This document shows positions 47,628 to 57,188 of a stretch of DNA of 57,188 bases, piece by piece; positions within the stretch are counted from its first letter, which is position 1; every line of letters starts with the position of its first letter. The DNA comes from an uncultured Rhodospirillales bacterium (lineage in GTDB: Bacteria; Pseudomonadota; Alphaproteobacteria; CAAGCB01; CAG-977). Both the position numbers and the translations under genes were made by a program. Location of the stretch: assembly GCA_902777205.1 (NCBI GenBank), contig CACYSU010000014.1:1-57188 (forward strand), read 5' to 3'. The notes under the pieces were generated by a model, which did not search any database, was not told the DNA's origin, and saw only the letters and a list, made by a program, of their open reading frames with translations.

Positions 47628-50600
47628 TCAGTTCATCCATTTCCTGTACGTGCTGTCGTCCAGGATCGGATTGTCCATCGGCGTCAGGATGACATCATTC
47701 GTTCCGGCGGCGTCGGGTTCTCCGTTGTCCTTCAGTCCTATGAACCGCATATTGGGCATATCGAAACGCTGCGGGTTGAAATAACAATAGGTGTGAGCCA
47801 GCGCGGTCCACGATCCGGTGCTGACCCCGCCGACGTTCCACACGAACGTACCGGCCGCGTCGTTGTAATAGGACGCGAATCCCATCGCGATTTTCCACCC
47901 CAAAACTTGACCGGCGGCGTTCGTTTCCGGCTGTTGCATGACGATCATGCGTTGCGACGGCTGCATGATGCGGATACCATGCACCGCATAGTTGTTTGAG
48001 CTATCCTCAAAATTCTGCCATCCGGGGTTGTACGAAATCGGATTGCCTTCGTCGTGGCGGGAATACAGCACCCGCGCGACGTCAAACGCGTTCGGGGTCA
48101 GGGTCATAACCGCCTGATACCCGTCGGGGCAAACGCCTTCATCCTGCGCGCTCTGGGTTTCCGTAACCGAAGCACCGGACGAGTTCACCGCGGCATAGGA
48201 CACCGACCGTCCGGGGGCGGGAACGATGCCCATGAACGGATGCGCCCAACAAAAAGCGCCGTCCGGGCATTCCCTGTATTCGGCTCCGCTTGCACCGAAC
48301 GTGAACGTAACGTATTTGCCGGTTCCCTCCGTTCCGGACGAACCGTCGCACGTCCCTGACGAACAGGTACACGTACCGCCGCCGGCGGCTTTAACCGGAT
48401 GATCGTGCGTGGAATCGACTCTGGAACAGTTGAATTCCCAGCCGCCGTTGACCATGCCCAGCTGATTAAACGTCATATACGGCATGGAATAGGAACAACT
48501 GCTGGCCCACTTCTCACTGGCAGTGTTCAAGCTTTCTCCGCACGGCCACCCGCCATAGGCGTAATCGTTCGACAGTTGGTAAATGCCTTTCAGAATATAG
48601 TTCGGCAACGCTTCGCTGAGCCGCGCGCCGCCGCGCGACGTGATTTTGATGTCGTTCATCACGGAAACGAACGCCGGATCGACGCGGAAGTTTTTGTATT
48701 TGTCCCGATCGTTGATCAGATGCGCACGATACGGCGAATACGGACCGCCCAGATTGCCGGTGTTGATATCGACATAGGCCGTGTTGTAATAGTCGGCGTT
48801 CGTCGTCGTGTTGCCCGCGGTGGTGCGTCCGGTGTCCTCGTCGATCTGGATGCGGGCGCGACCGACGATCGAATTTTTGTATTGGTGATTGTTTACGGCC
48901 AAGTTCTCGGGTTGGAAAAACGTGCCGCTGACCCGTCCGGAATCGCCGTAAAGCGCGACGGGATTGGCATTGGAAACATCTATCGAGAACATTTCGCTAT
49001 TATTACTGCCAACACGAGCCTTATTGCCGGCAATATAAACGGCTTCCCCGCGATTGTTAGCCCCCGTCAGCACACCGATCCTCGCACGTTGGCCGGCGTT
49101 ATTTCGGAATGTAATATATTGCCCCCATCCTTCCCCGCCTTGAGAACCGGTCGAATTGGCGAACAGAGTCAACCCCGAGTTATTATAGACCAGCTGCCGT
49201 TTATATAATGCGGTATTAATCACATTGATTTGAAACCTCGCGTCGGTGTTCTGCATATTATACAGCCCGAAGGAAGCCGCGCTGTTATCGGCATTAGAAT
49301 AATAATAATTTTTCATCGCTCTGACAACAAAATCTGTATCATCGTGATACACTTGCGTTCCGGAATCATTATTTCCTATAGTTGAATAGGCCCAACTTCC
49401 TCCTCTATATACTTGCGAATTGTAACCATAAGAATTTACATACAGACGATATGCACTATTCCACAGTTGCTCACTTATACTATGGTTTCCGTGTGTAACA
49501 TTTAGAAAAATATAATTTGTAGCATTGATATATTGCTTTGGCGCGTTTACGGACAATCTATTCAGCGCGTTTATATACGCACGATTGTTTGAAACCAGCT
49601 GCATCTGATTGATCGCCGTCAGGTACATCGTGTTTTGCGAATAGATATCCATCGTGTTTTGCGAATAGATATCCATTGCCCGCACCGCCGCCAGGTTCAC
49701 GTCCTGATTGGACACGATGTCGATCCGACTACTAGCCGTTATAAAAGCTTCACGGCCGGAAAGGGACGCCTGATTAGCGGCGGTAATTCCAATATTCGGC
49801 GCATTTAAATCGGTTGTGAAATTTGTCATGTTCAAGCTGGACGATGTCGTTCCGCTGACCCCCAGTGACAATCTGTTTGTCATGTTGATGTGCGACGAAT
49901 CCGTTCCCAGCAAAACGCGGGCGTATCCGGCATCACCGCTATTGCCTTCCTCTTGGTCATCGCCGTTGGCGGTGTTTTGCGAACGGATCAGGATTTTGCC
50001 GCCGACAACCTCCAACCCGCCGGCGTTATTGATTTTATGGCATTGCGTGCCGTTGCATTCGATCGCGCCGCCCATGTCCAGATTGGTGAACATACTGTTC
50101 GCGCCGGGCAGGCCGTCCACCTGTTTGCGGTACAGGTAATCACCCGAAAAACCCGACGAATAAATCGTCGTCGCCGCAACGCGTCCGCCGGCGGAGCTGT
50201 TGTACCCGACGATGTAGTTTGTCGCGTCGCCTTCCCAAATGCCTTGCGAGCCGACGATTGTCGTGCGGCCGTTACCGCTCAAAACGTTATTGACCATGTT
50301 CGACGTGCGCACGAAACCGCCGTCCGCCCCGATCATCGTCGCGATGCGCGCCGCGCGGCGGTCGTCGATTTCCGCCGCCCCGTTCGACAACACGACGCCC
50401 GTCATTTTATACCGCGAACACGTGCAGGTGGAGCTGAGCCCCGTGTAAACGCCGTCCATTCCCATGCTGCCGCACGTCGCGCCTGTAGATGTGTTCGTCG
50501 CCTCGGTGCATTGGGCGCGCACGCCGATATCGAACCCGTCGGCCAATTTGTTGCCCCGCAGCCGGAACGTCGTCGAATTGTTGCCGCTCGACACGGTTTC

Positions 50601-50942
50601 CAGATACGTCGCCGGCAAATACGGCGCCAACCCCGCGACCGGAACGGCGAAATGGCTGTCCGCCGAATTGGCACAACTCGCCCCGCCCGCGACCGCGATC
50701 GTGCCGCCCGCCGAACACGCCGCTTTGATGCTGGCGTAGTTTGCTTCGATCCAATTGGACAGCGCGTCCTTCAACTCTTTCATCTGGCCGGCGATGGCGA
50801 CATCCTCCATTTCCACGGTACGGTCGGCCGTTTGGCGCACAACCATCGGCGACATCATCGTCATCAACCCCAACAGCGCGATCGCTTCGATCATCAGCGC
50901 GCCGCGTTCATCGGTCTTTTTGTTCATCAGGGGCGTAAACAT
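47628..50942 (-). CDS. Very large type IV prepilin-like protein (PilV-type adhesin)
   Basis: 1104 residues from the ATG behind GGGAGG. The N-terminus has a prepilin peptidase site DERG-ALMIEAIALLGLM (Glu at +5) and a long hydrophobic helix. A PilV-like part follows with cysteines (CTEATNTSTGATCGSMG, TCTCSRYK). Residues about 380-620 are Asn/Tyr-rich beta-type with a doubled DIYSQNTM. The C-terminal part is Cys-rich (GGGTCTCSSGTCDGSSG). PilV proteins sit at the tip of type IVb pili and choose target cells. The size is two to three times that of known PilV. No shufflon-type inverted repeats were seen around its 3' end. Confidence 0.8.
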   Translation of the reverse strand: MFTPLMNKKTDERGALMIEAIALLGLMTMMSPMVVRQTADRTVEMEDVAIAGQMKELKDALSNWIEANYASIKAACSAGGTIAVAGGASCANSADSHFAVPVAGLAPYLPATYLETVSSGNNSTTFRLRGNKLADGFDIGVRAQCTEATNTSTGATCGSMGMDGVYTGLSSTCTCSRYKMTGVVLSNGAAEIDDRRAARIATMIGADGGFVRTSNMVNNVLSGNGRTTIVGSQGIWEGDATNYIVGYNSSAGGRVAATTIYSSGFSGDYLYRKQVDGLPGANSMFTNLDMGGAIECNGTQCHKINNAGGLEVVGGKILIRSQNTANGDDQEEGNSGDAGYARVLLGTDSSHINMTNRLSLGVSGTTSSSLNMTNFTTDLNAPNIGITAANQASLSGREAFITASSRIDIVSNQDVNLAAVRAMDIYSQNTMDIYSQNTMYLTAINQMQLVSNNRAYINALNRLSVNAPKQYINATNYIFLNVTHGNHSISEQLWNSAYRLYVNSYGYNSQVYRGGSWAYSTIGNNDSGTQVYHDDTDFVVRAMKNYYYSNADNSAASFGLYNMQNTDARFQINVINTALYKRQLVYNNSGLTLFANSTGSQGGEGWGQYITFRNNAGQRARIGVLTGANNRGEAVYIAGNKARVGSNNSEMFSIDVSNANPVALYGDSGRVSGTFFQPENLAVNNHQYKNSIVGRARIQIDEDTGRTTAGNTTTNADYYNTAYVDINTGNLGGPYSPYRAHLINDRDKYKNFRVDPAFVSVMNDIKITSRGGARLSEALPNYILKGIYQLSNDYAYGGWPCGESLNTASEKWASSCSYSMPYMTFNQLGMVNGGWEFNCSRVDSTHDHPVKAAGGGTCTCSSGTCDGSSGTEGTGKYVTFTFGASGAEYRECPDGAFCWAHPFMGIVPAPGRSVSYAAVNSSGASVTETQSAQDEGVCPDGYQAVMTLTPNAFDVARVLYSRHDEGNPISYNPGWQNFEDSSNNYAVHGIRIMQPSQRMIVMQQPETNAAGQVLGWKIAMGFASYYNDAAGTFVWNVGGVSTGSWTALAHTYCYFNPQRFDMPNMRFIGLKDNGEPDAAGTNDVILTPMDNPILDDSTYRKWMN
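49626..49673 (-). repeat. 24-bp perfect tandem repeat in the giant pilin gene
   Basis: The unit catcgtgttttgcgaatagatatc occurs twice back to back (listed here as the plus strand read in parts); it encodes DIYSQNTM twice. Copy-number change would stay in frame. Confidence 0.9.
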
Positions 50943-51465
50943 GGCAACCTCCCATTCGGAAATTCGTTCCAGCCGCACTTCGGGCTTTGGTTATTTACCC
51001 CATTGTAAAGGCAAAATCACGCCGCAATCAACCCAAATCGTGTATATCCGACGTTATATTCCGCGGTTTTCCGCCATTTTTCGGCCGTTTATGACTAAAG
51101 ACATAGAAACACCACAACCCGTTGAAAAATAACGATTCAGAAAACGGCGCGGCCTTTTGCCGGATCGGCGGAGGCCGGGCCGCACAAAACCGCCGCCCCG
51201 CATCCTACCCGTCCCCGCCGCGCCCGACCGCGACGAATCGCCGGAACAGACAGCGACACCGCGGATTTTTTATATGAACGCCCCCCCTGATTGCTTCACA
51301 CCACGCACAAGAGTTGCTCCACACGGACATTTCCCTGTACGGGTAGTATTCCCGCATAAGCAATGCCCCCCCCCGAACGGACAGTTCCCCCGTACGGGTA
51401 GTACCCCCGCACGGGTAGTGCCGCGGAATCACTTTGACGGCGCGTTGCTGCAACCGCAAGCGCGA
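50943..51465. other. Intergenic region of 523 bases with short imperfect repeats
   Basis: No supportable gene. It separates the pilin operon (starting at 50942) from the end of the CoA transferase. The first half is plain sequence and must hold the pilin promoter, which I cannot place with certainty. The second half holds the GGGTAGT repeat listed separately. Confidence 0.6.
51324..51424. repeat. Imperfect tandem repeat with ACGGGTAGT core
   Basis: Two units of about 54 bases start with CGGACA at 51324 and 51378. Both share TACGGGTAGTA and CCCGCA; a third partial ACGGGTAGTG follows at 51411. The unit is GC-rich with runs of C. It is non-coding on both strands as far as I can judge. Confidence 0.6.
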
Positions 51466-56294: not shown

Positions 56295-56324
56295 TTGCCA
56301 AACGCGGCGGGGAAAAGCTATCCT
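56295..56324 (+). promoter_or_regulatory. Sigma70-type promoter of the structured leader
   Basis: TTGCCA, 18 bases, TATCCT, giving a predicted RNA start near 56331. It lies between the previous terminator and the hairpin-rich leader. Confidence 0.6.
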
Positions 56325-56330
56325 GACATT

Positions 56331-56612
56331 ATGTGCATCAAGCGTTTTGATGCGCGGAGTACCTGAAAAAGAGGTGCGGAGCCTTAGAACAGCTCTCTTA
56401 ATAGAACCGGTGCAGAGATGCGCCGTCATCCGTTTCGCGCAGGCAAAACGGAAAATATCCCCCGACCGTCCTTTCGATGGTTCGGGGAGCTTTTGGTGTA
56501 TGTTCAGAAGTCCCGATTTCCATCGGATCACTTTAAAGACCAAAAGGATCATTTGTTCTATTATGATTGTTCTAACTCCCCGAACCGCTTTTTCAAGCGG
56601 TTGTTTTTTTTC
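56331..56612 (+). ncRNA. Structured leader RNA with attenuator architecture, class unknown
   Basis: About 280 nt without a credible gene. In order there are hairpins GCATCAA/TTGATGC, GTACCT/AGGTGC, GAGC/GCTC, CGGTGC/GCGCCG, CCGTTT/AAACGG, CCCCGACC/GGTTCGGGG and CCGAT/ATCGG, then a perfect terminator. The segment GGTTCGGGGAG (56479-56489) is exactly complementary to CTCCCCGAACC (56576-56586), which overlaps the left arm of the terminator. So an early hairpin and a long-range anti-terminator exclude each other. It ends 18 bases before a signal-peptide gene with a strong ribosome site. It may be a riboswitch or attenuator, or a separate small RNA. I do not recognise the aptamer. Confidence 0.6.
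56583..56611 (+). terminator. Perfect terminator hairpin at the end of the leader
   Basis: AACCGCTT, loop TTTC, AAGCGGTT, G, then eight T. It lies 20 bases before the ATG at 56631, inside the untranslated leader. This is the expected place for conditional termination. Confidence 0.88.
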
Positions 56613-56630
56613 CTGAAAAAGGAGGGAGTT

Positions 56631-57188
56631 ATGAAAAAAACTTTATTGATTTTCGGTTTGTTTTTACTGTTCGCGACGGAAGCGAAAGCACTGTCATGCC
56701 CTTCGGGACAATATTTTGTTGCCAACGCCTCATGCGGCGAGATTCCCGACGAGCTGGGTGACAGGTGCGTTTCCTGTCCCGATGGATGTACGTCCTGCAG
56801 CCCGATCCGTTATTGGACGACCTGTCAGGCATGGGATGCAACCAACCATCAAACAATATATTCTTACACTTATGCCACCACTGCCACGTGCAACGCCTGC
56901 GAATCGGGATATGAATTGAAAAGCTACTCCATGAGCGGTTATGACGGAACCACGAGCACGCCGTTTACGGGATACGACTGTAAACGCAAAACCTCCTCTT
57001 CCGCCTCCTGTCCCGCGAACTGTTCATCATGTTCGTCGTCATCGACCTGTACGGCGTGCAAGAGCGGTTACACACTGAAAAACGGACAGTGCGTCAAACC
57101 CTGTCCCGCGAATTGTTCCAAGTGCGATTCATCGGGATCCTGCACACAATGCAACGGCGGGTACAAATTGAAAAACGGAGCTTGCGAA
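56631..57188 (+). CDS. Secreted cysteine-rich repeat protein, 5' part
   Basis: 186 codons, open at the window end. GGAGGG lies six bases before the ATG. A signal peptide (MKKTLLIFGLFLLFATEAKA) is followed by Cys-rich sequence. Repeats of about 30 residues have the form CPANCSSCSSSSTCTACKSG, then YTLKNGQCVKP, then CPANCSKCDSSGSCTQCNGG, then YKLKNGACE. This spacing recalls furin-like and Giardia-type surface protein repeats of eukaryotes. The disulfide-rich product is expected at the cell surface or outside. The function is unknown. Its base composition is less GC-rich than the neighbours at the 5' end. The gene sits behind an attenuator-like leader. Confidence 0.8.
   Translation, partial: MKKTLLIFGLFLLFATEAKALSCPSGQYFVANASCGEIPDELGDRCVSCPDGCTSCSPIRYWTTCQAWDATNHQTIYSYTYATTATCNACESGYELKSYSMSGYDGTTSTPFTGYDCKRKTSSSASCPANCSSCSSSSTCTACKSGYTLKNGQCVKPCPANCSKCDSSGSCTQCNGGYKLKNGACE

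Follow-up and report, generated by a model that had tools for sequence, protein, structure and literature searches.

A widespread, unnamed leader RNA of Alphaproteobacteria that looks like an on/off switch for the next gene

The closest described systems to the RNA analysed here are riboswitches of the translation- and termination-controlling kind (orphan riboswitch candidates), in which a conserved folded core in the 5' leader is linked to mutually exclusive helices, an antisequestor competes with a Shine-Dalgarno (SD) sequestor or a terminator, and one core can have two kinds of output. Leader-linked control of accessory and surface genes with terminators is also known from the EAR element/LoaP and RfaH/ops systems, while leader-peptide attenuators such as the Trp leader combine alternative hairpins with a terminator. 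Finally, the mobile or repeat sequence candidates of Narunsky et al. 2024 (PMC11109978) occur in many copies per genome and lack a consistent orientation relative to neighboring genes. Our goal was to determine how the leader at the end of one contig of an uncultured Rhodospirillales bacterium (GCA_902777205.1, contig CACYSU010000014.1) compares with these systems. The window, that is the whole stretch of DNA analysed, is 57,188 nucleotides long.

A preliminary description of the window proposed that one strand of this leader can pair either just upstream or with a more distant strand that contains the left arm of a terminator, as in a riboswitch or attenuator. The observation is confirmed and this interpretation is largely supported. 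The sequences and coordinates are exact, with GGTTCGGGGAG at 56479-56489, CCCCGACC at 56460-56467 and CTCCCCGAACC at 56576-56586, and the leader folds far better than dinucleotide shuffles (z -7.1, 0 of 200). Three corrections are needed, however. The downstream strand of the 11-bp helix was said to contain the left arm of the terminator, but the overlap of the helix with the terminator stem is only its AACC end, and the same strand pairs more fully, over 8 bp, with the SD region of the gene, which had been missed. The hairpins described as coming first include two pseudoknots. Additionally, the secreted Cys-rich protein named as the controlled gene is only one of many kinds of gene found behind this leader.

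Distribution and structure of the leader RNA

The leader is not unique. A blastn search against its own genome found 14 dispersed places, and a covariance model built from 12 of them found 15 significant copies, some of them cut, in this 1.94 Mb genome and 73 matches in 15 of 61 relatives. A second model built from 61 sequences found the RNA in 11 of 12 genomes of the order and in 32 of 385 sampled Alphaproteobacteria, including large free-living genomes with one or two shorter copies of about 150 nt. The genomes are mostly MAGs, and the E-values, which come from a shortened calibration, are rough. In a phylum-wide sample, for which the number of genomes outside the class is not shown, all 8 positive genomes were of the same class. 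An exact pattern scan of 84,980 species returned MAGs labelled Alphaproteobacteria or Pseudomonadota, several of them from ruminant gut, and two MAGs with other labels (Gastranaerophilales and Erysipelotrichaceae), where binning errors are likely. Viral contigs and phage records gave no match. No family of Rfam 15 matches the window at the curated gathering score, and homologous loci gave only tRNAs and the separate sRNA Atu_Ti1. Relaxed searches gave only chance-level, inconsistent matches, among them a weak Trp_leader match that is far below the gathering score and is not repeated in homologues. We found no description of this RNA in the literature, only part of which could be searched.

The features of the leader are collected in Table 1. 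Two pseudoknot helices, PKA and the hypervariable P4, are rewritten from copy to copy, yet self-complementarity is kept. P4 differs in nearly every copy of a genome but remains self-complementary, with 8.54 pairs within a copy against 4.82 between copies, and PKA gives 7.04 against 4.23; none of 5000 permutations reaches either value in 67 gut copies. The result repeats in 32 distant copies, including plasmids (7.7 vs 5.2 for P4 and 7.4 vs 4.5 for PKA, again 0/5000). Given that the copies are related, these permutation counts overstate independence. Column counts for P3, PKA, P5, P8 and P12 show 28 of 34 pairs with two-sided changes and 223 two-sided-change cells against 62.6 in shuffles, and sliding the partners collapses the pairing. 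The alignment used for these counts was fitted to the first model, which held PKA, P5, P8 and part of P7 but not P3, P4 or P12, so the counts for the former lean towards the model. Free-living and plasmid copies carry a further conserved hairpin, GCGGGGGCGYACCGC, about 30-60 nt after the CUCCCC strand, between the switch and the SD.

Table 1. Predicted features of the leader and its controlled gene in the window (all on the + strand)
Position	Feature	Sequence or pairing	Basis
56295-56324	sigma-70-like promoter of the leader	TTGCCA, 18 nt, TATCCT	consensus scan; a TATCCT-like box at the same place in most own-genome copies
56333-56355	P1, variable 5' hairpin		fold; position kept, sequence differs between copies
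56359-56377	P2 hairpin	GUACCU/AGGUGC	fold; alignment
56379-56395	P3 hairpin	GAGC/GCUC; its loop UUAGAAC (56384-56390) is the 5' strand of PKA	covariation
56399-56407	5' strand of hypervariable pseudoknot helix P4	UAAUAGAAC, pairs with 56555-56563	permutation of partners
56408-56425	P5 hairpin	CGGUGC/GCGCCG	all 6 pairs with changes on both sides
56430-56451	P6 hairpin, absent from short versions		fold; alignment
56460-56487	P7, local hairpin that competes with P12; OFF state (inferred)	CCCCGA/UCGGGG	comparison of copies
56479-56489	switching strand	GGUUCGGGGAG, pairs in P7 or in P12	comparison of copies
56490-56546	P8 with conserved internal loop and variable P9	CUUUUGG/CCAAAAG; loop GUAUGUUCAGA ... 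UUUAAAG	7 of 7 pairs with changes on both sides; loop motif counts
56548-56567	P10 hairpin; its loop holds the 3' strand of P4 (56555-56563)	AUCAU/AUGAU	comparison of copies
56569-56575	3' strand of pseudoknot PKA	GUUCUAA, pairs with 56384-56390	permutation of partners
56573-56580	anti-SD strand; OFF state (inferred)	UAACUCCC, pairs with GGGAGUUA at 56624-56631	permutation of partners
56576-56586	3' strand of long-range helix P12; ON state (inferred)	CUCCCCGAACC, pairs with 56479-56489	comparison of copies
56583-56612	terminator-like hairpin (56583-56602) with U-run; its 5' end overlaps the 3' end of P12	AACCGCUU/AAGCGGUU	fold
56621-56631	SD region of the controlled gene	GGAGGGAGUUA	permutation of partners
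56631-57188	controlled gene, secreted Cys-rich protein, cut off by the window end, which is also the contig end	ATG at 56631	no Pfam match for the part present

Alternative pairings and the genes behind the leader

The switching strand has two conserved partners. With the downstream strand it keeps 7-11 bp in all 67 full-length copies, with compensatory changes (AG/CU, GG/CC, AU/AU, AA/UU) in variants such as GGATCGGGGAG/CTCTCCGATCC, GGTTCGGGGGG/CCTCCCGAACC, GGTCGGGGAT/ATCCCCGACC and GGTCGGGGAA/TTCCCCGACC. The preliminary description would have been contradicted if related leaders had not conserved this pairing, and the pairing passed. With the upstream CCCCGA the strand keeps P7, although P7 itself shows few two-sided changes. 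The downstream strand can in turn pair with the SD of its own gene, over SD and start codon in the window, and elsewhere as AAUUCCC with GGGAAUU, AAAUCCC with GGGAUUU, or ACUCCCCGAU with AUCGGGGAGU. Self-pairing exceeds that of permuted partners (0/5000 in the gut set and 1/5000 in the distant set). This covariation is modest in size (5.5 vs 5.2 pairs in the gut set) because all SDs resemble each other, and about a quarter of the copies have little SD pairing. In many restriction-modification copies the same strand extends the terminator so that SD, U-run and start codon lie together, while other copies, such as those before autotransporters and pilins, have a plain hairpin with U-run and little SD pairing. 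SD sequestration is probably the main output in most copies and termination in others. P12 and the terminator overlap little in two copies.

We conclude, with a probability of about 0.75, that the leader is a member of an undescribed cis-regulatory RNA family of Alphaproteobacteria that works like a riboswitch. The comparison shows a core with hairpins P3, P5, P7, P8 and P10, the two pseudoknot helices, and the alternative pairings of both strands. The switching itself is inferred from these comparisons, as are the promoter and terminator, without RNA data. In the model we favor, when the pseudoknotted core is stabilized, P12 captures the CUCCCC strand, the SD is free and the terminator is weakened (ON), and when P7 forms, CUCCCC sequesters the SD or the terminator forms (OFF). 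Secondary structure energies, which ignore pseudoknots, favor the P7 state by 4.5 kcal/mol on average, so the ON state would presumably need the pseudoknots or an effector. Least certain is the nature of the trigger. It could be a small molecule common to Alphaproteobacteria, bound near the conserved AUGUYCAG/UAAAG internal loop and acting as an activator because the sequestor overlaps the PKA strand, but no ligand is known and the unrelated controlled genes give no metabolic clue.

Of 60 copies with both flanks, 59 have a same-strand ORF starting 10-95 nt downstream, compared to 25 of 60 on the divergent side. In the window the leader follows a terminator-like hairpin behind an antiporter-like gene, and its own hairpin ends about 20 nt before the SD and ATG. 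Pfam and PADLOC matches of the genes behind the leader include EcoRI-type adenine methyltransferases, type IIG/ISP restriction-modification enzymes, type III and C5 methyltransferases, and GmrSD- and Mrr-type nucleases; autotransporters, type IV pilins and outer-membrane proteins; and acyltransferases, glycosyltransferases and a pyruvyl transferase. By clustering and sequence there are also groups of lipoprotein-like and Cys-rich proteins without clear Pfam match. Several of the autotransporters share an N-terminus beginning MKQSKTT, perhaps an extended signal peptide, and a 1116-aa protein encoded elsewhere in the window (47628-50978, - strand) has an N-terminal region (GALMIEAIALLGLMTMMSP) that recalls that of the type IV pilins found behind other copies. 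In free-living relatives the genes are HTH_3 regulators, RovC/DUF2285 proteins and small secreted or membrane proteins.

Related leaders also lie in hundreds of rhizobial and other alphaproteobacterial plasmids. A blastn search with a free-living copy hit 264 PLSDB records, 219 of them predicted conjugative, and one with the pAt4 leader, whose 3' end includes the first bases of traM, hit 373. The leader stands directly before the quorum-quenching gene traM in pAt4, pSinA, an octopine Ti plasmid, pTi2788 and pTiC58, with model support in each; support is weak for pTiC58 (E 5e-4), but its PKA, P4, P12 and sequestor are intact. Elsewhere it stands before an HTH gene of R. etli p42d, before a DUF2285 gene, and near small genes and acyl-homoserine-lactone synthases, although many plasmid genes are unannotated. 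The theme is accessory, phage- or plasmid-facing genes and not metabolic ones. This suggests a plug-in regulatory device for accessory genes, present in up to fifteen copies per genome and carried between hosts on conjugative plasmids, and points to an unrecognized RNA step in the regulation of traM, a textbook quorum-sensing component of Agrobacterium. A more tentative reading, which we consider somewhat less likely than not, is that this riboswitch class senses one common intracellular signal, such as a second messenger or a marker of phage attack, DNA entry or conjugation, and sets the expression of restriction-modification, surface receptor and polysaccharide genes and of traM on Ti plasmids accordingly.

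ALTERNATIVES

The same conformational switch could instead be triggered by a protein or RNA chaperone, for example Hfq or ProQ/FinO, or by a trans RNA. This is possible but doubtful. In A. tumefaciens C58 the TraM protein is lower in an hfq mutant (PMC4201532), which fits post-transcriptional control but does not show that this leader is the cause, and the effect may be indirect. A ProQ/FinO-family gene lies directly before the traM leader of an octopine Ti plasmid (2563-2895 of that locus, L200). However, the family is scattered over many families of the class and travels on plasmids, so a protein trigger would have to be present throughout, and we infer that large conserved pseudoknotted cores are more typical of ligand-binding RNAs.

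A mobile or recombination element, in which the conserved DNA is an attachment site or repeat used to exchange gene cassettes, is unlikely. Integrative islands with a Phage_integrase gene lie inside some copies at the junction of TCGGGGAG and nTTTTG, in the window's genome (C1:41223-41377 and C1:23275-23466 of its contigs) and in another genome, G007 (contigs C11 and C54). In G007 the two RNA halves have matching P4 and PKA and so come from one interrupted RNA that served as attachment site, while the two halves in the window's genome do not match each other. A second junction, between CTCCCCGA and TATGGTTTTAAAGCG, is repeated at contig ends right behind the RNA (C6:97510-97598 and C23:1-89 in the window's genome, C19 of genome G006 and C40 of G007) and is probably the end of another inserted element. 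Additionally, pairs of copies in different genomes, such as C2:145156 in the window's genome and C21:64746 in genome G011, share RNA body and gene type but differ abruptly in the promoter or P1 region, as if RNA plus gene were exchanged between expression sites. None of this explains the strict orientation and spacing to one downstream gene, or the covariation of a pseudoknotted single-stranded structure and of the SD pairing. Island insertion can be explained by a conserved sequence being a good target, as with tRNA genes.

An independent trans-acting small RNA that ends at the terminator, with the downstream gene read by leak-through only, is equally unlikely. The leader has its own promoter-like box and terminator, and one copy (C13:3145-3352 in the window's genome) has no obvious gene behind it; there is also a decayed copy (G006 C51:82829-82964) and a locus (L177) with what looks like a second partial copy in tandem. 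However, nearly all copies lie in a fixed place directly before a gene, only about 20-50 nt separate the hairpin from the start codons, which leaves little room for a separate promoter, and the RNA strand co-varies with the SD of its own gene, which a separate RNA would not need.

Ribosome-mediated attenuation finds even less support. The conserved AUGUYCA is present in 61 of 67 copies, about 10 nt behind GGGGAG, and could start a leader peptide. However, ORF lengths run from 6 to 434 codons, stops are scattered, all three frames relative to the gene occur, codon 2 alternates TTC/TCC (Phe/Ser), and the AUG is missing in some relatives. The SD-likeness of the switching strand follows from its having to mimic the SD. 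Processive antitermination by a specialized NusG paralogue of the RfaH/LoaP type, suggested only by the resemblance of these leaders to the places where such factors act, is very unlikely given that the genome has one NusG-family match only, that mostly single genes follow and that the SD pairing is covaried.

Comparison with described systems

Comparing the leader to each of the described systems helps to place it. With riboswitches of the translation- and termination-controlling kind it shares, on comparative evidence, a conserved folded core in the 5' leader on the same strand as the gene and mutually exclusive helices linking that core to SD or terminator, but it has no Rfam match or known ligand, occurs in many copies per genome before unrelated accessory genes, and has a hypervariable long-range pseudoknot helix. 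The EAR element/LoaP and RfaH/ops systems likewise act on accessory and surface genes with terminators, but here there is no NusG paralogue in the genome, mostly single genes follow and the SD is predicted to be sequestered. Compared to leader-peptide attenuators, the leader has alternative hairpins and a terminator but no conserved leader peptide. With the mobile or repeat candidates (PMC11109978) it shares many copies per genome and, in places, nearby integrases, but its orientation and spacing to the gene are consistent and it co-varies with the SD of that gene.
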